Assembly (NCBI RefSeq): GCF_003751085.1
Contig: NZ_RJJY01000001.1
Location: 5,332,001-5,396,000 of the forward strand
Direction: 5' to 3'
Origin: Micromonospora sp. Llam0
GTDB lineage: Bacteria > Actinomycetota > Actinomycetes > Mycobacteriales > Micromonosporaceae
DNA: 64,000 nt
This document shows positions 9,500 to 33,126 of this stretch, one piece after another. A model generated the notes under the pieces. That model did not search any database. It saw only the letters and a list, made by a program, of their open reading frames with translations, and was not told the origin of the DNA. The position numbers were made by a program, and so were the translations under genes. The first letter of the stretch is position 1. Each line of letters begins with the position of its first letter.

Positions 9500-10191
9500 G
9501 ACGCCGCCACCGGCTGCCGGCGGACGTCGCCGACCAGGCGGCCGTCCCGGATCTCCACCCGGCGCGGCAACCGCGCCGCGATGTCGCGGTCGTGGGTGAT
9601 CACCGCGATCGTGGTGCCGTCGGCGTTGAGCGCGGTGAGCAGGTCGAGCACGGCGCGACCGGTGGCGGTGTCCAACGCGCCGGTCGGCTCGTCGGCCAGC
9701 ACCAGCGCCGGGTCGTTGACCAGCGCGCGGGCGATCGCCACCCGCTGGCGTTCCCCGCCGGACAACTGCCGGGGCAGGTGACCGACCCGGTGGGCGAGCC
9801 CGACCCGGGCCAGCGCCTCGGCGGCCAGCGGCCGACGGCGGCGGCGCGGTACTCCCGCGTACAGCAGGCCGGTGGCGACGTTCTCGGCGGCGGTCAGCCC
9901 GTCGGTGAGGTGGAACTGCTGGAAGACGAAGCCGAGCAAGCGCCCGCGCAGCGCCGACAGCTGCCGGTCGGACAGAGCGGTCACGTCGTGGCCGCCGAGC
10001 CGGACCGCGCCGCTGGTCGGGCGGTCCAGGGTGCCCATGATGTTGAGCAGAGTGGACTTGCCGGAGCCGGACGGGCCGACGATGGCGACCAGCTCACCGG
10101 CGTGGATGTCGAGGTCGACGTCGGTCAGCGCGGCCACCCCGCCGGGGTAACACATCCCGGCCCGCACCACCGACAGCACCGGGACGCTCAC
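9496..10191 (-). CDS. ABC transporter ATP-binding protein, MacB/LolD type
   Basis: 231 residues with Walker A ([12 protein letters not shown]), Q-loop (FVFQQFHLT), signature [15 protein letters not shown], Walker B ([12 protein letters not shown]) and H-loop (AVITHDRD). This combination is typical of the ATPases paired with FtsX-like permeases. It overlaps the permease gene by 4 bp and the adaptor gene by 4 bp, and would energise the permease encoded at 8288-9499. Confidence 0.93.
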
Positions 10192-11507
10192 GACGTGGTC
10201 ACCACCGTCATGCCCTCGTCGAGACCGTCCCCGGTGACCTCGACCATGCCTCTGGTGAACAGCCCGGTCTCGACGGCGATCAGGGCACCGTCGGTCAGCT
10301 GCACCGCGTACCCGCCCTCGGCGAGCGCGAGCAGCGCGCCGACCGGTACGGCGAGGACCTGCTCGCGTACCTCGGTGCGGAACTGCACCCGGACCGGCGC
10401 GGATTCCAGCTCGCCGAGCACCGCCGGGTCGTCGGGCACGGCGGTGAGGCTCAGCTGCGGCCCCTGCCCCGGCTGGCCTTCGGGATCGGCGACGACGGTG
10501 CCGACCGCGGCGATCCGGCCGGGGACGGTGGCGCCGTCGGGCAGGGTGATCGTCACCGGCGCGTCGGGCAGCATTCCGCTCGCCTCGCCGGCTCCCACCC
10601 GTACCGTGATGATCTTGTCTGTCGGGGTGACCGACATGATGTCCGTCGCGGCACTGTCCCCGGCCAGCGCGGCGACCGCGTCGACCCGGACCTTTCCCGG
10701 AAGTACCGCCACCTCGCCGGGCCGCAGCGTGCCGGTGGCTGGCGCGTCGCGATCGCGCTGCCAGCGTTCGATGGCCGAGATCAGCTCCGGGGTGAGGACC
10801 GCGTCGCCGGTACGGACGGTGACCATGCCCCCGGCGGAGGTCGGCTGCCGGCCAGAGTCGGGGGTCGGCTGCCGACCGGAGTCGGCGGTCTGCTCCGGGT
10901 CCGCAGACTGCTCCGGGTCCGGCGTCTGCTCCGGGTCCGGCGACTGCTCCGGGTCCGGCGACTGGGCCGCATCCTGGTCAGCGGCGGTCGTCGCCGCCGG
11001 CACCGCGACCGTGGCACCGACCGGCGGCTGCCAGCCGATCCGGTAGCCCAACGCCTCCAGGTTGTCGGCGACCACCCGCACGTCGCGGCCGACCAGATTC
11101 GGCTGGTCGAGGGTACGGAACAACGGCGTGCCGCCGTAGAACAGCAGCACCGGCTGATCGTCCACCCGGTACAGCTGCTCGCCACGCTCGATCACCGCGC
11201 CCTGCTCCGGCAGCCAGGTCAGCACCCCGTCGCTGGAGCCCCGCACCGGCCGGGCCGCGCCGTAGCCGAGGGTGCCGGCCAGCTCCCGGGCGTCGGAGAT
11301 GTCCATCCGGACCACCTCGGTGGTCGCCACCCAGACCGGCTCCGGCGTCGCGGCGTCCGCGTCGGCCGTCGCGCCCCGACCCGGCCAGCCCCAGCCGACC
11401 ATCGTCCCGGTCACCGTCAACCCGGCCACCACCATCGCGGCAGACAGGCCGTACGCCAGCGGTCGCCGCCACCGGCGACCGGCGAACGTTCGCAGGAAGA
11501 ACACCAT
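10188..11507 (-). CDS. Membrane-fusion-type adaptor with split peptidoglycan-binding domain
   Basis: 439 residues. N-terminal signal anchor ([21 protein letters not shown]), a barrel-sandwich/lipoyl-like segment ([21 protein letters not shown]), a PG_binding_1-like domain ([19 protein letters not shown] ... [17 protein letters not shown]) split by a low-complexity insert of SPDPEQ repeats, and a C-terminal beta domain of the efflux adaptor type ([17 protein letters not shown]). It is the periplasm-side partner of the MacB-like pair downstream. The ATG at 11507 opens just ahead of the signal anchor; no strong ribosome site is visible. It diverges from the response regulator, so the 88 bp between them probably carry both promoters. 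Confidence 0.8.
10890..10961 (-). repeat. Four 18-bp tandem repeats encoding S/T-P/A-D-P-E-Q
   Basis: Exact-period 18-bp units at 10890, 10908, 10926 and 10944 encode [18 protein letters not shown] and SADPEQ. A second, longer degenerate repeat (DSGRQPT, twice) follows in the protein. The array interrupts the predicted peptidoglycan-binding domain of the adaptor as a flexible acidic linker. The near-identical units suggest recent expansion by slippage. Confidence 0.9.
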
Positions 11508-11594
11508 GCCGGCCAGCGTCGACGGCGATTGTGAGGAACCTGTCAGACCGGTACGGTGCGATTTCCCACCGCCGCGCCGACGCCAAGGCGCAGT

Positions 11595-12302
11595 ATGGTT
11601 CGCCCCGTGGCTGCCCATGTGCTGATCGCCGAGGACGACCGGCGGCAGGCCGAGGTGCTGCGCCGGTACGTGGAGTCCGACGGACACCGGACCACAGTGG
11701 TCCACAACGGGCGCGACGCGCTCGACCAGGCCCGCCGGCACCGCCCGCAGCTGCTGCTGCTCGACGTGATGATGCCCGGCCTGGACGGGCTGAACGTGTG
11801 CCGGATCCTGCGCCGCGAGTCGGACCTGCTGGTGCTGATGCTCACCGCCCGCGCCGACGAGGACGACATGCTGCGCGGGCTGGACCTGGGCGCCGACGAC
11901 TACCTGACGAAGCCGTACTCGCCGCGGGAGCTGATGGCCCGGGTCCGGACGTTGCTGCGCCGGGTCGACCGGGTGCCGCGCACCATCGACGGGGTACGGC
12001 GGGTCGGTACCCTCGCCGTCGACCCGGTCCGCCGCGAGGTCACCGTCGACGGGCGGCCGGTCGTCTGCACGCCGGGCGAGTTCGCGATCCTGGCCGCCAT
12101 GGCCGAGCAGCCGGAACGGGCCTTCACCCGGGCCCACCTGCTGGAGCACACCCGGGGCCTGGACCGGGACTCGACCGAGCGGGCCATCGACACCCACATG
12201 GTCAACCTGCGCCGCAAGATCGAACCGGACGTACGCCGGCCCGCGTACCTGGTGACGGTGTACGGCATCGGCTACAAACTCCGCGACCCGGCCAATGGCT
12301 GA
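11595..12302 (+). CDS. OmpR-family response regulator
   Basis: 235 residues. Receiver domain with the acidic pair (AEDD), phospho-acceptor Asp57 in LLLLDVMMPGLDG, the T of MLTARAD and Lys of YLTKPYSPREL; then an OmpR/PhoB winged helix (EFAILAAMAEQPERAFTRAHLLE ... DTHMVNLRRKIEPD). Start at 11595 (ATG) or 11607 (GTG); neither has a strong ribosome site. Its stop overlaps the histidine kinase start. Divergent from the adaptor-ABC operon, which is its likely target. Confidence 0.92.
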   Translation: MVRPVAAHVLIAEDDRRQAEVLRRYVESDGHRTTVVHNGRDALDQARRHRPQLLLLDVMMPGLDGLNVCRILRRESDLLVLMLTARADEDDMLRGLDLGADDYLTKPYSPRELMARVRTLLRRVDRVPRTIDGVRRVGTLAVDPVRREVTVDGRPVVCTPGEFAILAAMAEQPERAFTRAHLLEHTRGLDRDSTERAIDTHMVNLRRKIEPDVRRPAYLVTVYGIGYKLRDPANG

Positions 12303-14322
12303 GCCGACCGGGGCCAGGGCCGGGGCCGGGTCGGCGGCTGGCGCTGAGCCGACCGGCGACGCGTCGGCCACCGGGGGTGCCCGGGTACCGCTGCGGCACA
12401 GCCTGGTGCTGCGGCTGCTCGGCGCGTCGGTGCTGGTGACGGTCTGCGCGGTCGTCGCCACCGCCTGGCTGACCGTGGAGTCGACCACCCGGGCGATCGA
12501 ACAGGAACAGGGCCGCTCCCTCGCCGACGACGTCAGCATCTACGACACGTTGATCACGTACGCGGTCGAACACCGCGACTGGTCGGGAGTCGCGCCGACC
12601 GTCGACGAGCTGGCGGCGCGTACCGGCCGGCGGATCGTGCTGCTCGACCCGGTGACCCGCGGCCCGGTCGCCGAGTCGGCCCCCGGACCGGCGCTACCCG
12701 GACCGGCGCTACCCGGGCCGTCGCTGCGCGATGCCCGGCCGTCGGCCACCGTCGACCCGCTCGACCTCGACCCGGCGTTGGCCGGGGCCGCCGCGACGGT
12801 CACCAGCCAGGTGGCGAACGTCGCCGCGACGGCCGCCGGGCAGGAGTCGAACATCGACGCCCGGGTGGTCGGGCCGTACCGGCCCACCGACGACGAACGG
12901 GCGATGCTGCGCGAGGCCGCCGAGGAGTACCTCACCTGCGTCGGCCGCGACGGCGGCACCGCCGAGATCGTCGAGCTGCCCAGCGGTCGACCGACCGTCG
13001 AGATCGGCTCTCCGGCCGGGGCGTCGACCGCCGACCTGATCAGACCTGCTCCCGGCCCGGACACCGGGGTCTGCGCGAAACCGGAGGTGCTGGAGGAGCC
13101 GACCCGTGGCGAGATGGGCCCCTTCGAGGAACTACTCGACCTCACCAGGACCTGCCTGAGCCCGGTGGTCGACCAGATCGACCTGACCGTCTCGGCGGAG
13201 TTCACCGTCGAGGTGGTCCGCGCGCTGCCGCGCGTACCGTCCGACGCGCAGCTGCGGGCCTGCGTGGAGGAGAGCCGCCGCAGCCAGCTGCGACCGTACG
13301 TGGCCCCGCCGGTCCTGCTGTTCGTCACCGACCCGGCGGCCGCCGGCCCGGAACCGACGACGGTCAACCTGTCCACCGGCAACCTGCTGCGGATCGCCGG
13401 CGTCGCCGGCCTGGTCCTGCTGCTCACCGTCGCGGTCACCGTCGGCGTCGGGATGCGGCTGGTCCGGCCGCTGCGGGCGCTGACCGAGGCGGCCCGCGCG
13501 CCGGTCGACCGGCAGCACCGGGTGCCGGTCACCACCCGCGACGAGATCGGCTACCTCGCCACCGCCCTCAACGACCTTGCGCAGCGGCGCGACCAGCTGG
13601 AACAGCAGCGCCGGGCGATGGTCAGCGACGTCGCGCACGAGCTGCGAACCCCGTTGACGAACATCCGGGCCTGGCTGGAGGCCGCCCAGGACGGGCTGGC
13701 GCCGGTGGATCCGCGTACCCTCACGCTGCTGACCGAGGAAGCCACCCTGTTGCAGCACGTCATCGACGACCTGCGGGATCTGGCCGCCGCCGACGCCGGG
13801 ACATTCACGCTGCACCCGGAGCCGACGTTCGTCGGCGACGTCCTCACCCAGGTCGTCGAGGCCAACCAGGGTGCCGCGACCGCCGCCGGGGTCGCCCTGC
13901 GGTTGGCGGTGCACGGCGACCCGGAGGTCACCGTCGATCCGGTACGGCTGCGTCAGCTCGTCGGCAACCTGGTCGGCAACGCGGTGCGGCACACCCCAGC
14001 CGGCGGGTCGGTCACCGTCGACTGTGCGGTACGCGGCGACGGCTGGCTGACCGTCGAGGTGGTCGACACCGGGGTCGGGATCGCCGCCGACGACCTGCCG
14101 AAACTGTTCGACCGGTTCTGGCGGGCGGACGCCTCCCGCAGCCGGGCCACCGGCGGCAGCGGGCTTGGCCTGCCGATCGCCCGGCAACTGGCCCGCGCCC
14201 ACGGCGGGGACATCACCGTGGCCAGCGAGCCGGGCAGGGGCACGCACGTCACGGTACGCATCCCAGCCCAGCCACCCAGCACACGCCACACCTCACGGCT
14301 GCTCGATGCCCGGACACGGTGA
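12295..14322 (+). CDS. Membrane sensor histidine kinase
   Basis: 675 residues. Cytoplasmic Ala/Gly-rich start, TM1 (about 35-57, LLGASVLVTVCAVVATAWL), an unusually large extracytoplasmic sensor of about 300 residues with several cysteines, TM2 (LLRIAGVAGLVLLLTVAVTV), HAMP (MRLVRPLRALTEAARAP), HisKA with His448 (SDVAHELRTPL), and HATPase_c with the N box (LVGNLVGNAVRHT) and G boxes (DTGVGIAADD, GGSGLGLPIA). It overlaps the response regulator gene by 8 bp. Its 3' end is duplicated at 14825-14902. The pair plus the adjacent MacB-like pump resembles envelope-stress or antimicrobial-peptide sensing modules. Confidence 0.92.
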   Translation: MAEPTGARAGAGSAAGAEPTGDASATGGARVPLRHSLVLRLLGASVLVTVCAVVATAWLTVESTTRAIEQEQGRSLADDVSIYDTLITYAVEHRDWSGVAPTVDELAARTGRRIVLLDPVTRGPVAESAPGPALPGPALPGPSLRDARPSATVDPLDLDPALAGAAATVTSQVANVAATAAGQESNIDARVVGPYRPTDDERAMLREAAEEYLTCVGRDGGTAEIVELPSGRPTVEIGSPAGASTADLIRPAPGPDTGVCAKPEVLEEPTRGEMGPFEELLDLTRTCLSPVVDQIDLTVSAEFTVEVVRALPRVPSDAQLRACVEESRRSQLRPYVAPPVLLFVTDPAAAGPEPTTVNLSTGNLLRIAGVAGLVLLLTVAVTVGVGMRLVRPLRALTEAARAPVDRQHRVPVTTRDEIGYLATALNDLAQRRDQLEQQRRAMVSDVAHELRTPLTNIRAWLEAAQDGLAPVDPRTLTLLTEEATLLQHVIDDLRDLAAADAGTFTLHPEPTFVGDVLTQVVEANQGAATAAGVALRLAVHGDPEVTVDPVRLRQLVGNLVGNAVRHTPAGGSVTVDCAVRGDGWLTVEVVDTGVGIAADDLPKLFDRFWRADASRSRATGGSGLGLPIARQLARAHGGDITVASEPGRGTHVTVRIPAQPPSTRHTSRLLDARTR

Positions 14323-14333
14323 GACCGACATAA

Positions 14334-14477
14334 CGTCGGACAGATCGGCGCACGTTGATGCAGGTCAGCCAGGCGATCGAAGCGCTCAGCAGGGAAGGGC
14401 CAGCACTTGGCCGACCACTGGTCGACACAGCCAAAGGGTCTGCCCTGCCGAATCTGAAGGAACTTCGGCCAGACTGA
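14334..14477 (+). pseudogene. HigB-like (Gp49) toxin remnant
   Basis: The frame opened at 14334 reads ...MQVSQAIEALSREGPAL, GRPLVDTAKGSALPNLKELR, then PD and a TGA at 14475. The GPALGRPLVD...K.S...NLKELRP segment is the central conserved block of phage-derived Gp49-like HigB/RelE toxins. The catalytic C-terminal half is missing and the N-terminus is truncated. It abuts and slightly overlaps an XRE antitoxin fragment in another frame. A decayed toxin gene. Confidence 0.7.
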
Positions 14478-14808
14478 CCATCTGACTGACCCTGAGGCCC
14501 GCTCGTGGGATGACCTGAAGCGCAACCTGGGCTTCTCTACGGCTGAGCACGAGGAGATCGAAGTCGGCGCCGAGCGTCTGATCGCTGAAGCTCGCGCCTT
14601 CCGGCTTTCCGAGATCCGGCGACGTCAGCACACCACGCAGAACGAGGTGGCGAAGGCTATGGGGGTGACTCAGGCCCGCGTCTCTCGCATCGAGAAAGGA
14701 CAGTTGGAGCGGAGCGAGGTCGATACCCTTGCAGCATATGTACAGGCTCTCGGTGGCAAGCTAAAAATCGTCGCCGACTTCGGGGATGAAAGCTACGTGC
14801 TGGGATAG
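14458..14808 (+). pseudogene. XRE/HigA-type antitoxin remnant lacking a start codon
   Basis: An open frame of 116 codons ends at TAG 14806. It contains RLIAEARAFRLSEIRRRQ, an HTH (QNEVAKAMGVTQARVSRIEK), then TLAAYVQALGGKLKIVADFG and DESYVLG, which is the standard layout of HigA antitoxins paired with Gp49-like toxins. No ATG, GTG or TTG exists in frame before the HTH: a TGA at 14455-14457 closes the frame and the first in-frame GTG is inside the helix. With the truncated toxin upstream this is a dead toxin-antitoxin locus, probably joined by an internal deletion. Confidence 0.7.
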
Positions 14809-14824
14809 CTCTGTCGTAGCCCGC

Positions 14825-14902
14825 GTGGCCGGCGAGCCGGGCCGGGGCACGCACGTCACGGTACGCATCCCAGCCCGGCCGCCCGGCACACTCCACACTC
14901 AG
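14825..14902 (+). repeat. Partial duplicate of the histidine kinase 3' end
   Basis: Bases 14825-14902 repeat 14218-14295 with only a handful of differences, and the frame reads VAGEPGRGTHVTVRIPARPP to a TAG at 14918. The two copies flank the HigBA remnant as direct repeats. Either the toxin-antitoxin segment entered with a homologous tail, or a tandem duplication was later filled. Confidence 0.85.
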
Positions 14903-14937
14903 CGTCACCTCTCTGGATAGGGGTCCCGGTTCAGTCT

Positions 14938-14975
14938 TGATGCCACAGGTGCATCAAGATGCACCTGTGGCATCA
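14938..14975. terminator. Perfect 18-bp inverted repeat with 2-base loop
   Basis: The arms 14938-14955 and 14958-14975 are perfect reverse complements (core GATGCCACAGGTGCATC). It lies between the converging HigA remnant/kinase side and the lipoprotein gene. No T-tract follows, so it may be a bidirectional terminator or a protein-binding palindrome. Confidence 0.6.
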
Positions 14976-15012
14976 GAGCGTGAGAGGCACCATGGGGTAC
15001 CCGGGTCACCGG

Positions 15013-23444: not shown

Positions 23445-23765
23445 TCAGACGGTGAGGGTGCCGCCCTTGGTAGCCGTGATGAAGGCGGCCCAGCTCGCCG
23501 GGGAGATCACCAGCACCGGGCCGGCCGGGTCCTTGGAGTCCCGCACGCCGACCACCCCGCCCAACTCGTCGGCCACCTCGACGCAGTCGCCCTGATCGTT
23601 GGAGCGGCTGCTCTTCCGCCAGGTGGCGTCGGCCACCTCGACGCAGTCGCCCTGATCGTTGGATCGGCTGCTCTTACGCCAGGTGGCGTCGGCCACCTCG
23701 ACGCAGTGCCCCTGAGCATTGGATCGGCTGCTCTTACGCCAGGTGGCGGTGGACAGGTCGATCAT
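23445..23765 (-). CDS. DUF397 protein with three tandem N-terminal repeats
   Basis: 106 residues, about 40 longer than usual for the family. The DUF397 opening (ATWRKSSRSNxQGDCVEVAD) occurs three times in a row, followed by the single normal C-terminal part (VVGVRDSKDPAGPVLVISPA, WAAFITATKGGTLTV). DUF397 proteins are small partners of XRE/DUF5753 regulators, a pairing seen throughout filamentous actinomycetes and influencing development or antibiotic production. It overlaps its XRE partner by 4 bp. Confidence 0.9.
   Translation of the reverse strand: MIDLSTATWRKSSRSNAQGHCVEVADATWRKSSRSNDQGDCVEVADATWRKSSRSNDQGDCVEVADELGGVVGVRDSKDPAGPVLVISPASWAAFITATKGGTLTV
23569..23748 (-). repeat. Three 60-bp tandem repeats inside the DUF397 gene
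   Basis: Units 23569-23628, 23629-23688 and 23689-23748 differ by only a few bases. Each encodes one 20-residue DUF397 opening motif. Recent in-frame triplication. Confidence 0.93.
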
Positions 23766-25786: not shown

Positions 25787-26260
25787 TCAGGGACGGTGGG
25801 CATCGTGGCGCGGCGAGCCGCGTCGGGTGTACCGATAGACCACTTTGCCGAGGATCTGGTCGGTGGGGCACGGGCCGAACTGCCGGGAGTCGGCGCTGCG
25901 CGCGTAGTCGCCGAGGAGATAGACGTGGCGTTCGGGCACGACAACCGGCACCGCTGCGGTCGTGACGGTTTCACCTGGCAGGGCGGCCACTCGCTTGATG
26001 AACCAGCGTCGGGAACCAACAGTGCCGGTGAGCCGCGCGCGGTCCTTCCAGCCCCGGTCCGGATCGGGACGGCTGACCACCACGATGCTGCCTTTGCCAA
26101 TCCGCTGCGCCCCCCGGCGGACCACCACCCGGTCACCGGGCACCAACGCCGGGGACATGCTCGGGCCGTCGACCGTGATCACCAGGTAGGTCCGGCGGAG
26201 CCAGACCGCCAAGCCACCGATCGACAGGGCTATCGCGCTCGGCAGCAGCCACCACGTCAT
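25787..26260 (-). CDS. S26 family signal peptidase (type I, compact)
   Basis: 157 residues, last gene of the peptide operon. One N-terminal membrane helix (LLPSAIALSIGGLAVWL), catalytic Ser34 in DGPSMSP and Lys89 in RRWFIKRVAALPGE, and the later box HVYLLGDYARSADSRQFGPC. Type I signal peptidases cut after an AxA motif. It is shorter than a housekeeping LepB. The precursor peptide at the head of the operon has AEAQA just before its cysteine-rich part, so this enzyme is the obvious candidate for leader removal. Start at ATG 26260; it follows the ATPase gene by 14 bp. Confidence 0.88.
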   Translation of the reverse strand: MTWWLLPSAIALSIGGLAVWLRRTYLVITVDGPSMSPALVPGDRVVVRRGAQRIGKGSIVVVSRPDPDRGWKDRARLTGTVGSRRWFIKRVAALPGETVTTAAVPVVVPERHVYLLGDYARSADSRQFGPCPTDQILGKVVYRYTRRGSPRHDAHRP

Positions 26261-26274
26261 CGAGGGTCTGCCGC

Positions 26275-27051
26275 TCAGCCGGTAGCCGGGCGAGCGGTGT
26301 CTTTGATGACGCGTCCGTCTCGGATCTGGATGACACGGTCGCAACGCGCGGCGAGGCCCGGGTCGTGGGTTGCGATGATCAGTGAGGCCCCGACCCGCTC
26401 GCGGAGACCGAACAGGAGCTCCATGATGTCTTCCCCGGTCTGGCTGTCGAGGTTTCCAGTGGGTTCGTCGGCCAGCACGAGCATCGGGTCGTTGATCAAG
26501 GCTCGCGCGATGGCGACACGCTGTTGCTGCCCGCCGGAAAGCTTCGACGGCAGCGAACCCTCTCGGCCGGCAAGTCCGACGGCGTCGAGAATCTGCTTCG
26601 CCTTGGCCCGTCTGTCAAACGAGGTCTTGTAGGGCAGCAGAGGCGCGATCACATTGTCCGCTGCGGTCAGTGTGGGCAAGAGGTGGAATCTCTGGAACAC
26701 GAATCCGACCCGCCGCCGATATTCGGCCAGTCGACGCCCCTTGATCCCGGTGACCGGCTCGCCCGCTACCTCGATGACACCCGAATCAGGTGTGTCGAGT
26801 GCCCCGATCAGGTGCAGTAACGTGGATTTACCAGACCCGGATGGCCCGGTAAGGGCGACGATCTCGCGCTCGCGCATCTCGAAATCTATGTTCCGGCACG
26901 CGTAAATCGGCTCACTGGCGTCGGTATGGTAGGTCTTGGACAGGTCGACCACCCGTACGATCGGCTGGTCACCCTCGCTATCCGACCCGCCTGAGGTGGG
27001 CTGAGACTCATCACCCAGCACGTTATCGCCCTGGGCATTTTTGCTTATCAC
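26275..27051 (-). CDS. ABC transporter ATP-binding protein (partner of FtsX-like permease)
   Basis: 258 residues with an extra acidic N-terminus of about 30 residues. Walker [17 protein letters not shown]-loop GFVFQRFHLLP, signature [16 protein letters not shown], Walker [14 protein letters not shown]-loop IIATHDPGLA: the LolD/MacB class. Its natural partner is the 912-residue permease at 30086-32824, although three genes separate them. GTG start overlapping the exporter gene by 4 bp. Confidence 0.92.
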   Translation of the reverse strand: MISKNAQGDNVLGDESQPTSGGSDSEGDQPIVRVVDLSKTYHTDASEPIYACRNIDFEMREREIVALTGPSGSGKSTLLHLIGALDTPDSGVIEVAGEPVTGIKGRRLAEYRRRVGFVFQRFHLLPTLTAADNVIAPLLPYKTSFDRRAKAKQILDAVGLAGREGSLPSKLSGGQQQRVAIARALINDPMLVLADEPTGNLDSQTGEDIMELLFGLRERVGASLIIATHDPGLAARCDRVIQIRDGRVIKDTARPATG

Positions 27052-28964
27052 GCGGTTATCCGTTCCGACTCGTCAACTATCTCGGCACTGGTCCCTTCTG
27101 GCCGGGCGGACGACTCGCCTTCGCCGGCCGCATAGCCGGCTGCCTGCAGGTTGAACAGACGGGCGTATTCACCACCCTTGCCCAGCAGGGACGCGTGTGA
27201 ACCTTCCTCGATGACCACCCCACCCTGCAGCACCACGATGTGGTCGGCTTGCCGCACTGCAGCGAGGCGATGGGATATCAGAATGCTGGTCGAGCCCAGT
27301 CGATGGCGTGTGAGCTTTTCGTTTATCTCCTGCTCGGCGGCAGGATCGAGCCCAGACGTCGGCTCGTCCAGGATCAGGACATCCCGTCGGGTCCTCATGA
27401 ACGCGCGGGCCAGAGCGAGTCGCTGCCACTGCCCGCCGGACAACACGACTCCGGAGCTGAGATCGTCCCGGTCTGCGGGCACGAAAATGCGAGACAGCAT
27501 GGTGTCATATCCATCAGCCAGCTTCTCGATGAAATCGTCGGCACCTGTCCTGCCTGCCGCAGCAGCGATCTGCGATTGGTCTGCGTGATTCGCGACATCG
27601 CCGATGCCGATGTTCTCGGACACCGAAAGATCATACATCATGTAGTCTTGGAAGACAGCGCTGATCCTCGCCCTGAGGGCACGGGCCGAAACATGGCGGA
27701 TGTCGGTCCCGTCCCATTTTATCCGGCCCCTGGTCGGCTCGTACAGGCGACACAGAAGCTTGACCAGGGTGCTCTTGCCAGCACCGTTCAACCCCACCAG
27801 ACCGAGGGTCGCACCATGGGAGAGCGTGAAGCTTACACCCTGCAGGATCCAGGGGCCGTCGTTGGTGTACCGGAACCAGACGTCCTGGAACTCTATCCGG
27901 CTTGACAGGGGCGACAGCGATGCCGTCGACTCACTTTCCGAATTGCGCCGAGACATGTCGATAATTGCAACATAATGAGAGAATCCAAGTAGCGCCTGGT
28001 GGCCTGCGGCGATTGAGGCGACGAGTCCACCGAGCGCCATCTGCACGCCGGTCACCGAGGCGATGAACGCGGTGATGTCGCCGATGTCGAACGCTCCGCG
28101 TGTCGCCTCGGCGACCATCCAGACCAGGCCACAGCCCGCGATCGTGGCGCTCAGCCCGGCCAGCGGCCCGTGGCTCAGCACGACCCTTCGGTCGAATTTG
28201 TCCTCCGTGGAGTTTATCTGGCGGGTCTCGCTGCGCATTCTGCCGAGGAGAAACCCTCCGAGGTTGAACAGGCGGAGTTCCTTGGCGGCAGCCAGGTCGA
28301 GCATGAGCGCCTGGTAGAAGAGCTGACGCCGGTTACGCGGGCTCAGTTTCCAGGCCATCTGGGCCTGCTGCCGGCTGATCGAGAGTTGTACGACCAGGAC
28401 GGGCACCGCCGCCACGACCGTCACGGCCGTGACAATCGGACTGATCGCCATCAGAACGACGATGAAGCCGGACACCGAGATGGCGTTCTGCATCGCCCCG
28501 AACAGAGCTCCGGAAACCCGGTCCGGGGCACTCATCGCGTTCTCGTGCGCGAGACGTAGCCTGTCTCTGAACTTCGGGTCTTCGAGGACCGCGATGTCGT
28601 CGAATCCGTTGACTGTCGAGAACAGCCGGTCCTGCACGATGATCGCGGCCTGCCGCCGTAGGCGCGCTTTGACATAGTTCGAAAGGTGTGGCAGGAGGGC
28701 CGCGAAGGCGCCGAGCACCGCGATGGCGGCAACCGCCAGGAGCGGCTCGAGACCCGCAGCATCAGGGAACTGAAGAGAATTTACCAGTTCCTTCGTCAGC
28801 CACGCGACGCAAGCCGGGATGAGGCCGAGCGCGACTGTGATCGCCACCGAGCACACGAAGGCTATCGGACCGGCCCGGAACGTGAGCGCGAGCGCCTTTG
28901 CCGAACAGGCGACAAGTCCACGCCAGCCGACCAGCACCTTCGGGTCAGAACGCGAGGTCGCCAC
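27048..28964 (-). CDS. ABC exporter (fused membrane and ATPase domains)
   Basis: 638 residues. A type IV exporter-like membrane domain with about five to six helices (residues 20-330: FVCSVAITVALGLIPACVAW, LLAVAAIAVLGAFAALLPHL, VSGFIVVLMAISPIVTAVTV) followed by an NBD (Walker A GLNGAGKSTLVKLL, signature VLSGGQWQRLALARAF, Walker B VLILDEPTSGLDP, H-loop LISHRLAAV). There is no N-terminal C39 peptidase domain, so leader cleavage must be done elsewhere, fitting the S26 peptidase in the operon. Likely exports the cysteine-rich precursor. GTG start two bases after the thioredoxin stop codon. Confidence 0.9.
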   Translation of the reverse strand: MATSRSDPKVLVGWRGLVACSAKALALTFRAGPIAFVCSVAITVALGLIPACVAWLTKELVNSLQFPDAAGLEPLLAVAAIAVLGAFAALLPHLSNYVKARLRRQAAIIVQDRLFSTVNGFDDIAVLEDPKFRDRLRLAHENAMSAPDRVSGALFGAMQNAISVSGFIVVLMAISPIVTAVTVVAAVPVLVVQLSISRQQAQMAWKLSPRNRRQLFYQALMLDLAAAKELRLFNLGGFLLGRMRSETRQINSTEDKFDRRVVLSHGPLAGLSATIAGCGLVWMVAEATRGAFDIGDITAFIASVTGVQMALGGLVASIAAGHQALLGFSHYVAIIDMSRRNSESESTASLSPLSSRIEFQDVWFRYTNDGPWILQGVSFTLSHGATLGLVGLNGAGKSTLVKLLCRLYEPTRGRIKWDGTDIRHVSARALRARISAVFQDYMMYDLSVSENIGIGDVANHADQSQIAAAAGRTGADDFIEKLADGYDTMLSRIFVPADRDDLSSGVVLSGGQWQRLALARAFMRTRRDVLILDEPTSGLDPAAEQEINEKLTRHRLGSTSILISHRLAAVRQADHIVVLQGGVVIEEGSHASLLGKGGEYARLFNLQAAGYAAGEGESSARPEGTSAEIVDESERITA

Positions 28965-28966
28965 GG

Positions 28967-29494
28967 TCAGCGTTCGCGAGGCAGTGATGCAGCGCCAGCC
29001 CCGCTGGCGATGACCCGGCCGGCGGAGTCACTGGCGATGAAGGTCGGGAAAGCGAAGACAGCGAAGCTCCTCGCGAAGTCGCCTTCCTTGGAATCGAGCA
29101 CGGTCGTGGCGATCCCGCCCAGCTGCTCGATGAAGTGAGTGGCGTTCTCGCGCTCGCCAGCTATGACGGCGATGGCCTGAGACTGCCGCAATGACTGACT
29201 CCGCACGTACTCGATGAAGTGCGGGATCGACGGGCCACACGCTGAGCAGCCGGTGGAGATAAACGCGAACACCGCCTGCTCCTGACCGACTCTCGCAACC
29301 GACACCTCGGCACCGTCAAGCGCGGTAGTCGTGAGATCCGGCAGCGACGAACCAACCGCGAGCCCGGACACGGGAGCCGAATTGACAGGCGCTGACTGGT
29401 CCTGTCGGAGCCGACGGATCACCGCTGCGGTCAACGACAGATTGATGAGGGATATCGCCCCGATCAGCACGACGGACGCAACTACGTAGGTCAT
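28967..29494 (-). CDS. Membrane-anchored thioredoxin-fold protein (TlpA/MauD-like)
   Basis: 175 residues from ATG 29494. One N-terminal anchor (YVVASVVLIGAISLINLSL), then a thioredoxin fold outside the membrane with the active site Cys83-Ser-Ala-Cys86 (STGCSACGPS) and a cis-proline at about residue 150 (FAFPTF). The order next to a MauE-like protein mirrors MauD/MauE, which are needed to form the many disulfides of the methylamine dehydrogenase small subunit. Here the presumed substrate is the eight-cysteine peptide. An upstream GTG at 29509 is an alternative start. Confidence 0.85.
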   Translation of the reverse strand: MTYVVASVVLIGAISLINLSLTAAVIRRLRQDQSAPVNSAPVSGLAVGSSLPDLTTTALDGAEVSVARVGQEQAVFAFISTGCSACGPSIPHFIEYVRSQSLRQSQAIAVIAGERENATHFIEQLGGIATTVLDSKEGDFARSFAVFAFPTFIASDSAGRVIASGAGAASLPRER

Positions 29495-29518
29495 CGCTTT
29501 CCCAACCACTTTTGGGGG

Positions 29519-30082
29519 TCACAGTGGAGGTGTGCCGACACCCGACCCCGGCGAGGTGTCAAAGAGATCGACTATCTCATCGTAGTAGGTAACCAGTAGC
29601 GCAATGACGAATGCGCCCAGGACGCTCATGGCGACACCGCCCACGTGCAGATCGGACAAGTTCCCGTCTGCCTGGAAGACGTGGATGACCAGGCCGGCCC
29701 CAGCGATGGTGATCAGGATCAGGTTTCGATAGATGTGCCGCTTCCCGAGGTCGCTCGTTGGCCGCCCGAAGCACGCGCACGGGACGCTGATCTTCTGTTT
29801 GACCGCGGTCGCGACGCCGAGAGTAAGCACGACGAGCAGGCCGATCGCTGCAACCTGCCCGGCGGCGGCAACCCACGGCACGAGCATCGCCACCGCGATC
29901 GTCAGCTCGGCCGCGAGCAGTAGCGCCGTGACCACGGTGACGACCGCTCGTCGCGACTGCGGCAACTGCAGCAGGAGCGCGATCGCGGCCTCGGCTTCGG
30001 CTCGGGCGCGCAGCTTCCCGACCGCCGACACGGCGAACACCCCCACCATGGCCAGCTGGAAGGCCAGCCCCAGATAGGTCAC
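29519..30082 (-). CDS. MauE/DoxX-like redox membrane protein
   Basis: 187 residues with four or five membrane helices (YLGLAFQLAMVGVFAVSAVG, AVVTVVTALLLAAELTIAVA, VAAIGLLVVLTLGVATAV, LILITIAGAGLVIHVF, MSVLGAFVIALLVTYY) and the family CxC motif Cys102-Ala-Cys104 in VPCACFG. MauE-like proteins are thought to relay redox equivalents across the membrane to a MauD/TlpA thioredoxin. GAGGAG overlaps the end of the permease gene. Nine bases of spacing to the thioredoxin gene imply coupled expression. Confidence 0.85.
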   Translation of the reverse strand: MTYLGLAFQLAMVGVFAVSAVGKLRARAEAEAAIALLLQLPQSRRAVVTVVTALLLAAELTIAVAMLVPWVAAAGQVAAIGLLVVLTLGVATAVKQKISVPCACFGRPTSDLGKRHIYRNLILITIAGAGLVIHVFQADGNLSDLHVGGVAMSVLGAFVIALLVTYYDEIVDLFDTSPGSGVGTPPL

Positions 30083-30085
30083 CTG

Positions 30086-32824
30086 CTACTCCTCGACCAG
30101 AAGGCGGGTGACCGGGCGACGCCGCAGGGACTGGATCGGTGGGATGGCGGCGAGGGCTGCAGCGACGACGCCGGCGCCGGCCACGGCGAGCGCCATCGGC
30201 AGCAACCTGGCCACGCTGGCATCAGCGCCACCGGCCAGCAGTACCGCGAGACCGAGGCCCAGGGCCGCGCCCGGGACCGCCCCGAGTAGACCCAGCAGCA
30301 CGCCCTCGGTGAGAACCAGCCGGGCTATCGATGTGTGCGTCCAACCGGTCGCCTGCAGCGCGGCGAACTCGGAGGCTCGCTCCCGCACGTTCAGGAACAC
30401 CACGTCGGCGATCGCGACCGTGGCAAGGACCAGCATCGCGACCACGGCGGCCAGATCCGGCCCACGTACCTGAACGGCGATCGCGTCACCGAGCAGGCTG
30501 CCGACCAGGACACCCTGGAACGCCCAGGTGATGGCGACCAGCAGCGTCAGCGCCGTCACCGCGACAGCCAACGCCGCGCCGCCTAGCGCGGTACGCCCCG
30601 GTGTCCGGCGGATATTGACCATCGCGAGACCGGTGAGTCCGAGGAACAGCCGGGCGCGGCGGCCGGTGACGACGGCCGGCCGGACAGCCTCCATGGGATC
30701 GGCCCGCGACGCTTGCACCGCCGGGATCAGGCCGGCGGCGAGCGACACCAGGATCGCGGCCGGAATGGCGAGCACCGCTCGCGCCCAGGGCACCTCGACA
30801 CCTACGGGCCCGCCGATCAGCCACGCCCCCGCCGACGCCAGCACGCCTGCGGCAAGCCCGATGACCAGCAGCTCGCCCAACACCACGGCGAACAACGACC
30901 GCCGCGGCCAGCCCAGGCAGGCGAGCACGCCAAGCTCGCTGCGCCGGGCGCGCACTGCGGCGGCGGACGAGTTGCCGATGAACAGCGCACAGACCACAAG
31001 GACCAGGACGAACAGGATCAGCGACTTGCGCTCCACCGCTTCGCTGATCACCACTCCGACGCCCTTCTTCGACCACCATTCGGCGAGTGACAGGTCAGGC
31101 CGGCCGAACTCGCCGGCCGGCAGCGCCACGGTCCGCTCGGTCGGCGACGAGCCGACAGTGATGTCGACGTGCAGGCCGGTCTCCTGCGCGATCCGCTCCG
31201 CTACGACCCGGACCCGTTCCCGGGACACCTCGTCGATGCCGGTCACGCCGGCGACCCGCACCCGGATCGCCGCCACCGGCCCCGGCCCGGAAGACCGGTC
31301 GAAGTTCCCGTAGAAGGATGCTGCCGAATCCAGGGTGGTCAGCAGCAGCGGCGGCTGCTGCAGATAGCCGGCCGGGTTGCTGGACGGCAGCAGTGGCGCT
31401 CCGCCCAGCAGCCGCTGCGAGGTCTCGTCCGCGCCCTCCAGACCGGGCGACTGATAGGCGCCCAGTGGCACCTCGGACAAGGCCGAAAAGGTGTCGATCA
31501 GCTCGGGATCGAACCGGCCGGTCAACGTAAACTTGGGGTGGGTCACCTGTCGACCTATGGCCAGCCCGTGCAGTTGCAGTTCACGGAAACTCCGGTCATC
31601 GGCCGCGATCGGCGCGGTACCGATCCGACCGCCGAACAACCCCTGCCACACCTCGCTGGCGACCTCCTGGTCCCGGGGGATCAGCGCGCCGTCGGACCTG
31701 GTGTCCCACTCGACCGGTCCGGCCGTCCAGTACGCTTCTACCGCGTTGCCGAACGTATGTCCGAGGTCGCGAAGCAAAAATGCGTCAGCAGCCCCACCGT
31801 CGACCTCAATCGATTTGACCGGGAATCCGGAGGCGCTGTCGGCGAAACTGTCCGCAGCGGTGATGCTCTCCCTCGTCCCGACGAACTGTTCCGCGATATC
31901 GCGCGGCAGTTGCTCGACTTCCACAATCGCCTGCTGGTCGACGTAGCTGTCGCTGGCCGCGATCACCGGGACCGTCCGGGTCCAACCGTCGCCCTCCCCG
32001 GCCGCCGCAGCCCGGCTGTCGGGCAGATAACTCCCGGAGACCATCGCGTCGTCCAGACCGATCAGCTCGGCCTCGGCCGCTGGGTCGATGGCGGCCAGGA
32101 CGTACGGAATGCGCCAGTCAAGCAGGAACGCCTGGTCGGCGTACTCACGGCTGTCCTCGTTTAGGGAGTAACACTGCACAGTCTCGCTCATCGTCGATTC
32201 TTGCGACGAACCGGCCTGGATGTCGAGCGCTTTGCCGCAGATGTTGACCCGCGCGCCGGATGGAAGGATCTCGTCCAGAAAGCTGCCGAACGGGTTCTCG
32301 TCGGTGACCGAGACGATATCCCGGTGCGCAACCGGGTTCGGAGTGAAGTAGATGTAAGCTTCATCCGGCCCGATCGTGCTCAAGCCACGGTCCATGCGCC
32401 AGTTGACGGTGAGCCGGAAGGCCGATCGTTCTCCATCCGGTACGACATCGGACAGGTCCACCGGGACACGAAGCTCCGGGACGGCCATACCGATGAGGGC
32501 GATCGGCGCCGCCACCTCCACGCCGGGCAGGCTGCGGATCGCATCGACCTGTTCCAGGCTGATGCCGCCGGGTGCCTCGGTGAGGAAGTTGGGTCGAACG
32601 ACCCCGGTCGCCGTCTCCTGGTCGGAAATCGACTCCGCGGGGCGGACGAGGATGTCGTACGCGGTGCGGGCGTTCGCCTCCACCGTGCCAATGACGTCGA
32701 GCCGTGACGTCTCGGCCGTGCCGGTGAGCACCGTGAAACTGGTGACCGCGACGAACAGCCCAAGGAGCAGGGCGATCGACCGAGTCCACCGGCGGATAAC
32801 CTGCGACCACACAACCCGCAACAT
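30086..32824 (-). CDS. Large FtsX/MacB-like ABC permease (two FtsX modules)
   Basis: 912 residues from ATG 32824. One N-terminal helix (SIALLLGLFVAVTSFTVLTG), a long extracytoplasmic region of about 550 residues, then two sets of helices with the FtsX signature loops VRARRSELGVLACLGWPRRS and VRERASEFAALQATGWTHTS. Tail SLRRRPVTRLLVEE. Permeases of this architecture act in bacteriocin/antimicrobial-peptide export, immunity or envelope sensing. It follows the precursor gene after a hairpin and pairs with the ATPase at 26275-27051. Either exporter accessory or self-protection. Confidence 0.88.
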   Translation of the reverse strand: MLRVVWSQVIRRWTRSIALLLGLFVAVTSFTVLTGTAETSRLDVIGTVEANARTAYDILVRPAESISDQETATGVVRPNFLTEAPGGISLEQVDAIRSLPGVEVAAPIALIGMAVPELRVPVDLSDVVPDGERSAFRLTVNWRMDRGLSTIGPDEAYIYFTPNPVAHRDIVSVTDENPFGSFLDEILPSGARVNICGKALDIQAGSSQESTMSETVQCYSLNEDSREYADQAFLLDWRIPYVLAAIDPAAEAELIGLDDAMVSGSYLPDSRAAAAGEGDGWTRTVPVIAASDSYVDQQAIVEVEQLPRDIAEQFVGTRESITAADSFADSASGFPVKSIEVDGGAADAFLLRDLGHTFGNAVEAYWTAGPVEWDTRSDGALIPRDQEVASEVWQGLFGGRIGTAPIAADDRSFRELQLHGLAIGRQVTHPKFTLTGRFDPELIDTFSALSEVPLGAYQSPGLEGADETSQRLLGGAPLLPSSNPAGYLQQPPLLLTTLDSAASFYGNFDRSSGPGPVAAIRVRVAGVTGIDEVSRERVRVVAERIAQETGLHVDITVGSSPTERTVALPAGEFGRPDLSLAEWWSKKGVGVVISEAVERKSLILFVLVLVVCALFIGNSSAAAVRARRSELGVLACLGWPRRSLFAVVLGELLVIGLAAGVLASAGAWLIGGPVGVEVPWARAVLAIPAAILVSLAAGLIPAVQASRADPMEAVRPAVVTGRRARLFLGLTGLAMVNIRRTPGRTALGGAALAVAVTALTLLVAITWAFQGVLVGSLLGDAIAVQVRGPDLAAVVAMLVLATVAIADVVFLNVRERASEFAALQATGWTHTSIARLVLTEGVLLGLLGAVPGAALGLGLAVLLAGGADASVARLLPMALAVAGAGVVAAALAAIPPIQSLRRRPVTRLLVEE

Positions 32825-32874
32825 CGCTACCAACCTGTGTTCGTACAGCCCGAGAGCCGTCTTTCCAGGCGGGC

Positions 32875-32903
32875 CCCCGGCCGGACATCCAGGCCGGCCG
32901 GGG
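32875..32903 (-). terminator. GC hairpin between precursor gene and operon (attenuator)
   Basis: CCCCGGCCGG (32875-32884) pairs perfectly with 32894-32903 across a 9-base loop. It sits in the 116 bp between the precursor stop codon and the permease start. No U-tract follows. A partial terminator or 3' stabiliser at this place would allow much more precursor than transporter to be made, as in many peptide operons. Confidence 0.6.
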
Positions 32904-32940
32904 TTCCCACCTCCTACAAGTGCATCCGATCAGATGTGTG

Positions 32941-33126
32941 TCAGCACGTCGCGTCTGCCCAGCAGTCGTACGAGGTGCAGGCATCGTTCATCACCTTGCA
33001 TCGGATGTCCGGCGCAATGCAGAACTCGCAGTAGATGTAGCCACACGGACAGGGTGCGGCCTGCGCTTCCGCTTGCGGCACCAACCGCTCCAGCAGGGCT
33101 TCGCCGATCTTATTGAAGATTCGCAA
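32941..33126 (-). CDS. Cysteine-rich secreted peptide precursor (61 aa, 8 Cys)
   Basis: TTG start with GAAGGG 8 bases upstream; a TGA five codons before it and the absence of an in-frame ATG fix the start. Residues 1-23 (MRIFNKIGEALLERLVPQAE then AQA) form an amphipathic helix ending in an AxA site, without the hydrophobic core of a Sec signal. Residues 24-61 carry eight cysteines at 26, 28, 33, 36, 43, 50, 55 and 61 (PCPCGYIYCEFC, then APDIRCK, NDACTSYDC, ATC). This gives a mature, acidic product of about 38 residues able to form four disulfides. It heads the operon with MauE, TlpA, ABC exporter and S26 peptidase. No precursor family was recognised; zinc binding is an alternative for the CxC/CxxC cluster. 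Confidence 0.78.
   Translation of the reverse strand: MRIFNKIGEALLERLVPQAEAQAAPCPCGYIYCEFCIAPDIRCKVMNDACTSYDCWADATC

Follow-up and report, generated by a model that had tools for sequence, protein, structure and literature searches.

A leader-defined family of cysteine-rich precursors found with exporter, MauE, TlpA and S26 genes in actinomycetes

Results

Seven genes in the window

The DNA analysed here (the window) is a stretch of 64,000 nucleotides from Micromonospora sp. Llam0, in which an earlier note had drawn attention to a possible operon for a secreted, disulfide-rich peptide. As that note had it, seven open reading frames (ORFs) lie on the minus strand between 25787 and 33126, the first of which codes for a precursor of 61 residues with eight cysteines. 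From the 5' end, the precursor gene is followed by genes for an FtsX permease, a MauE protein, a TlpA-like thioredoxin, an ATP-binding cassette (ABC) exporter, an ATPase and an S26 peptidase. Intergenic gaps go from -4 bp (exporter/ATPase) up to 107 or 116 bp (precursor/FtsX, depending on the start codon), and positions, strand and gaps were all confirmed in the DNA. All features given below for the window are on the minus strand.

The whole precursor gene (32941-33126), as read from the DNA, has a TTG start with GAGGG just upstream. Its leader, residues 1-23 (33058..33126), reads MRIFNKIGEALLERLVPQAEAQA, ends on AxA (AQA) and is conserved in 147 distinct family members. The core, residues 24-61 with the stop codon (32941..33057), contains the 8 cysteines and has no Pfam or NCBIfam match. 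Between the precursor and the machinery genes, a stem scan detected a perfect 10-bp GC-rich hairpin without T run (32875..32903; z -2.5 relative to dinucleotide shuffles, of which 1 in 200 was equally good), at which a pattern search found no terminator. This hairpin could permit production of the precursor in excess over the machinery.

The MauE-family membrane protein (29519..30082) matches PF07291 with 69 bits (cut-off 27) and has a CxC motif (CAC). The membrane-anchored thioredoxin-fold protein (28967..29509, or up to 29494), of the TlpA/ResA/MauD kind, matches Redoxin (PF08534) and has a CSAC motif; in the NCBIfam scan it matched StoA and ResA only, far below their cut-offs, and did not reach the cut-off of the MauD model TIGR02661. 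The ABC exporter (27048..28964) is made of a transmembrane (TM) domain and an ATPase (PF00005), and the Pfam scan gave no match to a C39 peptidase domain. The S26 signal-peptidase-like protease (25787..26260), with one N-terminal TM segment, matches PF10502 and scores above the cut-off of TIGR02227 (signal peptidase I). Motifs and Pfam matches thus agree with the four assignments made earlier. The two other genes, for an FtsX-type permease (30086..32833, alternative ATG start at 32824; PF02687) and for an ATPase of the LolD/MacB/FtsE type that is its presumed partner (26275..27051; PF00005, best NCBIfam match LolD, below cut-off), are classed below as accessory.

No known modifying enzyme was found among the seven genes by Pfam and NCBIfam scans; in particular there is no lanthipeptide or prochlorosin synthetase, glycocin glycosyltransferase or lasso cyclase, in line with the earlier note. 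The presence of MauE and MauD-like proteins might evoke orthodox maturation of a methylamine-dehydrogenase-like enzyme, but no subunit of that enzyme is encoded by the window genes read, as had also been remarked, and we give this reading next to no credence. A search of the genome with PF02975 (methylamine dehydrogenase light chain) gave no match, the control likewise matching nowhere.

The precursor belongs to a family defined by its leader

Searched in 101 relatives, the window precursor matched 6 genomes, the match in G098 being counted as false (internal stop, no match with a larger model). The class-wide search, with an 11-row alignment, gave at least 22 of 394 genomes, and the order-wide search, with a 36-row alignment, at least 32 of 298; in the phylum at large, searched with the TlpA partner, at least 2 of 396 genomes matched, both in the class of the window. 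Survey counts are lower bounds because few candidates were scored per genome (16 for the class precursor survey, 8 for the class TlpA survey, 21 for the order).

The resulting family comprises 147 distinct peptides with a common leader, of consensus roughly M(R/K)xxNKxxDRLLxRLVPxAxAxA, followed by cores that differ (matches among relatives). ORFs below the score and cysteine filters were excluded from this set, as were a broken copy in G004 and one ORF dropped by hand as a false leader match (L059, 19528-19881). A public homologue (P0009, from Micromonospora sp. LOL_015) is 85% identical, has the same start and keeps all 8 cysteines. Protein matches of the family bear the names Micromonospora, Actinorhabdospora, Phytomonospora, Fodinicola, Microbispora, Nocardiopsis, Nonomuraea and Streptomyces, and are labelled hypothetical or uncharacterised protein, with one UniRef "Secreted protein". 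The AxA end noticed in the window leader is kept, by the strict pattern P...AxA, in 133 of the 147 members, the other 14 having mostly VxA or no proline.

In the broken copy of G004 (L013, same genus as the window), the precursor is split by an insertion element (9780-11510), with the leader and core pieces flanking it on opposite sides, and the operon is otherwise intact. The ORF at 10445-11443 of this element has an rve integrase core and the preceding one has no Pfam match; an IS3 type is a guess.

Mean pairwise identity is 36-38% for leaders and 14-18% for cores (Cys-Cys pairs excluded), a gap somewhat inflated by the selection of members on their leader. Against Pfam and NCBIfam, 36 precursors gave just scattered weak matches, none convincing, and a profile of 36 precursors matched no PDB sequence up to E 10, defensins included. 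Homology of the core to entries of these three databases was rejected for the 36 members, and none of the matches was to the methylamine dehydrogenase light chain. For 10 pairs of precursor ORFs from G013/G032 (at least 50% identity), the pooled, uncorrected ratio of nonsynonymous to synonymous differences (pN/pS) was 0.61, and it was below 1 in 9 of the 10; the precursor ORFs are therefore under coding constraint. On the sequence evidence, we regard the short ORF of the window as a real gene, whose leader defines a conserved family.

The leader is not a Sec signal, as it lacks the hydrophobic core of signal peptides: its best 10-residue hydropathy is 1.0 in the window and 1.05 as family median, while 52 Sec-like N-termini have a median of 2.47 and TlpA anchors one of 3.06. 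Nor does it have the traits of double-glycine/C39 bacteriocins, since it ends on AQA and not GG, and the exporter gave no C39 match. In an AlphaFold2 model of the precursor, the only helix lies in the leader (residues 2-15), with a mean predicted local distance difference test score of 55 (low confidence). A precursor made of leader and core, with its own processing genes, is what is expected of ribosomally synthesised and post-translationally modified peptides (RiPPs).

The number of cysteines is even in 142 of the 147 precursors (6 with 4, 76 with 6, 49 with 8 and 11 with 10), so that just 60 members have 8 or 10 cysteines. For comparison, the other small ORFs of those loci with at least 4 cysteines were even in 261 cases and odd in 122. 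Such peptides might be metal- or cofactor-binding carriers and not disulfide-linked miniproteins, as their high cysteine content, with pairs such as CPC and CC, may suggest; a multicopper-oxidase/cupredoxin-like gene is also found near 3 of 47 cassettes (L066, at 13589-14995, L078 and L081; Pfam scan on the L066 copy). However, cysteine spacing varies greatly among members in which the leader is kept, and we consider a carrier role improbable, the search for a metal link having covered, among recurring neighbours, this gene and the BTAD regulators.

Precursors co-occur with exporter, MauE, TlpA and S26 genes

We analysed 36 regions of 13-20 kb; with tandem places merged, they take in all 42 places, other than the window's, at which the class survey had found a precursor. 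With models built in this analysis, precursor, exporter, MauE, TlpA and S26 were all present in 32 of the 36 regions. At the set thresholds, two of the other four were without MauE, one was without exporter, and one had MauE, TlpA and precursor alone. Gene order varies among the regions. According to the earlier note, its reading would fall if the short ORF were not conserved beside these genes elsewhere; the ORF turns out to be a conserved precursor that travels with MauE, TlpA, the exporter and S26 in several actinomycete families. The FtsX permease, which the note had included in the gene set, was found in just 4 of 45 loci scanned (the window, its near relative L013, and L070 and L088, the latter two among the 36 regions), and is therefore accessory and outside the core. 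As judged from these loci, the minimal core is five genes: precursor, exporter, MauE, TlpA and S26, hereafter named the cassette. Its distribution supports a cassette spanning several actinomycete families.

No part of the cassette was found in loci around other ABC exporters (0 of 76 among the matches listed), a mild control because most of these loci come from unrelated taxa. Since the 36 regions had been found through the precursor, the reverse test, starting from TlpA, matters. The TlpA model matched at least 26 of 394 genomes, at 53 places or more, and these 26 include each of the 22 genomes with a match in the precursor survey. By manual comparison of the two lists, 39 of the 53 TlpA places coincide with precursor places; five of the 14 remaining were read, and four of them have a leader-like, cysteine-rich ORF near TlpA (scores 14.9 in L192, 9.2 in L194, 25.4 in L195 and 26.4 in L204). 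A scan starting from the exporter gave at least 4 cassette loci among the 80 matches listed, and those of Nonomuraea sp. SYSU D8015 and Streptomyces atratus OK807 contain a precursor.

These searches bear on the view that the cassette serves some other exported protein, the short ORF being incidental. No positive evidence for this view was found, although members of the MauE and TlpA families act on other proteins elsewhere, and no precursor was seen in four machinery loci (L180, L181, L217 and L218). Presence of the precursor in 36 of 36 regions argues the other way, if circularly, the regions having been found by the leader model; the precursor was also present in 3 of the 4 genomes found by TlpA alone, and in 2 of the 4 named loci found by the exporter (L216 and L219; among the matches listed). 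An incidental ORF thus looks very improbable to us.

In 28 of 47 loci, single-linkage clustering placed regulators of the BTAD/SARP type next to the cassette, and 10 of 10 sampled have BTAD. In L157 (Phytomonospora, 10177-12700), a carrier/thioesterase gene and an AMP-binding gene (adenylation type) directly follow the TlpA and S26 genes, and two overlapping precursor ORFs with odd cysteine numbers lie beside them. Elsewhere in the window, a DUF397 protein (23445-23765) has three PF04149 domain matches, with the unit ATWRKSSRSNDQGDCVEVAD in three near-identical copies; its counterpart in L013 (475-735) has two copies of this unit.

Some genomes contain many dispersed precursors and few exporters

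The genome of the window has one precursor. In G013 (Actinorhabdospora filicis), the genome search gave 59 precursor places, which became 58 peptides after DNA reading, and in G032 (Phytomonospora endophytica) 33 places, which became 34 peptides; G010 has at least 14 places (order-wide survey). There is one cassette-type exporter in G013 and there are two in G032, all above 680 bits, whereas no other ABC exporter scores more than 375. The exporter of G013 (L180) has one S26 gene next to it, and the 20 kb surrounding this pair yielded no precursor; the genome has one cassette-type MauE and two TlpA genes elsewhere, one of the latter (L138) with a precursor just upstream. The opposite arrangement is found in G064, with 4 cassette-type exporters, 6 TlpA and 7-8 precursors. 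Dispersed precursors with one or two exporters, like the regulators beside many cassettes, go beyond what the window alone could show.

Dozens of dispersed precursors for one or two exporters suggest that the leader probably acts in trans. Most simply read, a single exporter with a single oxidising set would handle many precursors by way of the leader that these share. The longest perfect stem after the 147 precursor genes has a mean of 8.4 bp, against 5.5 in shuffles, as expected of genes transcribed alone.

A near-palindrome, GTCCAYNNKGGAC, was considered as a common promoter of the dispersed precursors, being present with at most one mismatch upstream of 16 of 46 precursors read in G013 and 5 of 27 in G032. 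With 603 occurrences in the G013 genome, where the reversed control has 4, it is not specific to precursors, and this candidate was rejected. Promoter motif fits above 8 were 28 in G013, where shuffled sequence gave 19, and in G032 real and shuffled sequence both gave 19.

Conserved sites of the machinery proteins

Copies aligned out of those found were 27 of 35 for MauE, 31 of 40 for TlpA, 28 of 38 for S26 and 18 of 38 for the exporter. All 27 aligned MauE proteins match PF07291, and both cysteines of CxC are invariant. In TlpA, the first active-site cysteine is invariant and the second is kept in at least 90%. The serine and lysine of S26, which we take to be the catalytic pair, are invariant in 28 of 28. 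The window exporter is 41-51% identical to the 17 other aligned cassette exporters.

Discussion

Taken as a whole, the operon probably makes one secreted, disulfide-rich miniprotein, by leader-guided export, oxidation by MauE/TlpA and a cut by S26. Gene content, conservation, co-occurrence, cysteine parity and the conserved active-site motifs are what the analysis establishes; the order of steps, the direction of electron flow, the cleavage site, the topology and the role of the peptide are what we infer. The 61-residue precursor would be made reduced in the cytosol, and its short amphipathic leader helix would dock it on the dedicated ABC exporter. At the membrane, after crossing, the MauE/TlpA pair may join the eight cysteines, and the S26 protease would remove the leader after AQA, so that the mature peptide would have about 38 residues and four disulfides. 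The additional FtsX permease/ATPase pair of the window probably serves to protect the producer, or else to carry the peptide onwards. As the leader is shared and the core hypervariable, one such machinery could serve many precursors. Antagonism of neighbours would be the likeliest role of the peptide, a suggestion that we make tentatively, at somewhat less than even chances.

Several observations weigh against this pathway. Five of the 147 precursors have an odd number of cysteines, and paralogues in the cysteine counts are not independent, so that weight is put on the even/odd contrast and not on a probability. No precursor lies within 3.5 kb of TlpA in L203 (G416), and among the exporter matches listed, the loci of Actinomadura barringtoniae and of a short contig from a Micromonosporaceae metagenome-assembled genome have the machinery and no precursor at threshold. 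The machinery genes of G013 are not all linked and are presumably shared in trans. Most of all, the flank after the N-terminal TM segment is more positive than the one before it in 42 of 43 TlpA, and in 35 of 43 S26 proteins (4 of 43 being opposite), as counted with start codons from our own gene caller. Under the positive-inside rule, such charges would mean that TlpA and S26 have their domains in the cytoplasm, an unusual place for disulfides to form; MauE or TlpA could also reduce or isomerise. Either the rule fails for very short N-termini, or TlpA and S26 act from inside, for example as reductants; MauD, we assume, likewise has charged residues after its anchor. When the earlier note saw every step covered by the gene set, it was thus right as to the genes, which are present; the steps themselves are deduced, and the charges after the TlpA and S26 anchors do not fit an outside location. 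Its observation was correct, and its reading is supported in part, with the core holding up.

These anchor charges are consistent with another use of the same export cassette, in which the redox proteins, possibly from the cytoplasmic side of the membrane, would work as reductant or isomerase and either keep the precursor in a threadable state or fix wrong disulfides, net oxidation being spontaneous or due to a general Dsb-type system. ResA and DsbE are reductants, and they are matched by 14 of 31 TlpA relatives at E up to 0.01 and by 4 of 31, respectively, compared with 8 of 31 for MauD TIGR02661 at the same E bound. Two Streptomyces-type clusters (L063 and L069, family f33) also have two TlpA copies each, one with CGPT, which is without the second active-site cysteine, and one with CPSC. 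Even cysteine numbers, on the other hand, fit a fully oxidised product, and the MauE/MauD precedent is linked to disulfides, although, in the text consulted, the decRiPPter study (PMC7794033) treats the link as speculative for MauE and as unclear for MauD. A reducing or isomerising function is thus, in our judgement, unlikely, and oxidation by MauE/TlpA after export is preferred.

Beyond the window, chances are about even that these cassettes represent a widespread actinomycete class, in which a shared amphipathic leader would act as the ticket for export and oxidation, and dozens of unlinked, hypervariable precursors with even cysteine numbers would depend on one or two machinery sets. Single genomes would then hold a venom-like repertoire, of 58 peptides in one and 34 in another, and this raises the question of what they use it for. 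Such a pathway gives a concrete picture of how Gram-positive bacteria may fold multi-disulfide miniproteins, and suggests what MauE/MauD-like pairs are likely to do outside methylamine metabolism. The leader is a search handle that uncovers a large set of uncharacterised peptides, and if it is true that one machinery accepts dozens of unrelated cores, a route to designed disulfide peptides in a laboratory actinomycete would follow.

Comparison with known systems

In methylamine dehydrogenase maturation, the substrate of MauD/MauE is an enzyme subunit and not a leader-guided miniprotein, and we know of no dedicated exporter or S26 protease there. The likeness lies in the MauE family, its thioredoxin-like partner and a multi-disulfide substrate, as described in the text consulted (PMC7794033). 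Actifensin resembles the window system in that it belongs to actinobacterial secreted peptides, with three disulfides, a leader, ABC genes and several paralogues; as far as the text at hand goes, it differs by a defensin-like fold, a leader ending on GxE and a subtilisin-like protease in the locus, and MauE, TlpA and S26 were not met in it (PMC6989792). In the TMcin system, too, leader removal is linked to the membrane and a disulfide oxidoreductase is dedicated to the peptide, but in the portion consulted its precursor has a TM helix and one disulfide, its protease is of the S2P type, its oxidoreductase is the DsbA-like TmcD, and its hosts are staphylococci (PMC13252029). The part consulted of a review of RiPP leader proteases (PMC10885120) contains no mention of signal peptidase or S26. 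Many precursors for one promiscuous machinery recall the prochlorosins, whose precursors have a leader-core arrangement. According to the excerpt seen, these are lanthipeptides modified by an enzyme of the ProcM group (PMC10783134), which is absent from the window genes.

The nearest match is decRiPPter. The earlier note knew of no named class with this gene set, but the sections of that paper at hand predict three candidate RiPP families of Streptomyces with mauE, one of them also with mauD, without other mau genes and with precursors of at least 8 cysteines; they suggest a role in precursor modification, and the strict filter required transporter, peptidase and regulator (PMC7794033). The window has both a MauE homologue and an 8-cysteine precursor. 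In the same sections, these are computational candidates from Streptomyces alone, with no exporter/S26 core, common leader, even-cysteine rule or dispersed precursors named, and the main text as seen contains no mention of signal peptidase or thioredoxin (PMC7794033). Matched by description and not by precursor sequences, its MauE families are likely the same system as ours. No publication describing this leader family, or following up those MauE families, was found in a search that lacked most subscription journals. The class was thus predicted before (PMC7794033, as far as seen), and its characterisation was not found in the literature consulted; new here are the leader family, the five-gene core, the cysteine parity, the accessory status of FtsX and the dispersed repertoires.

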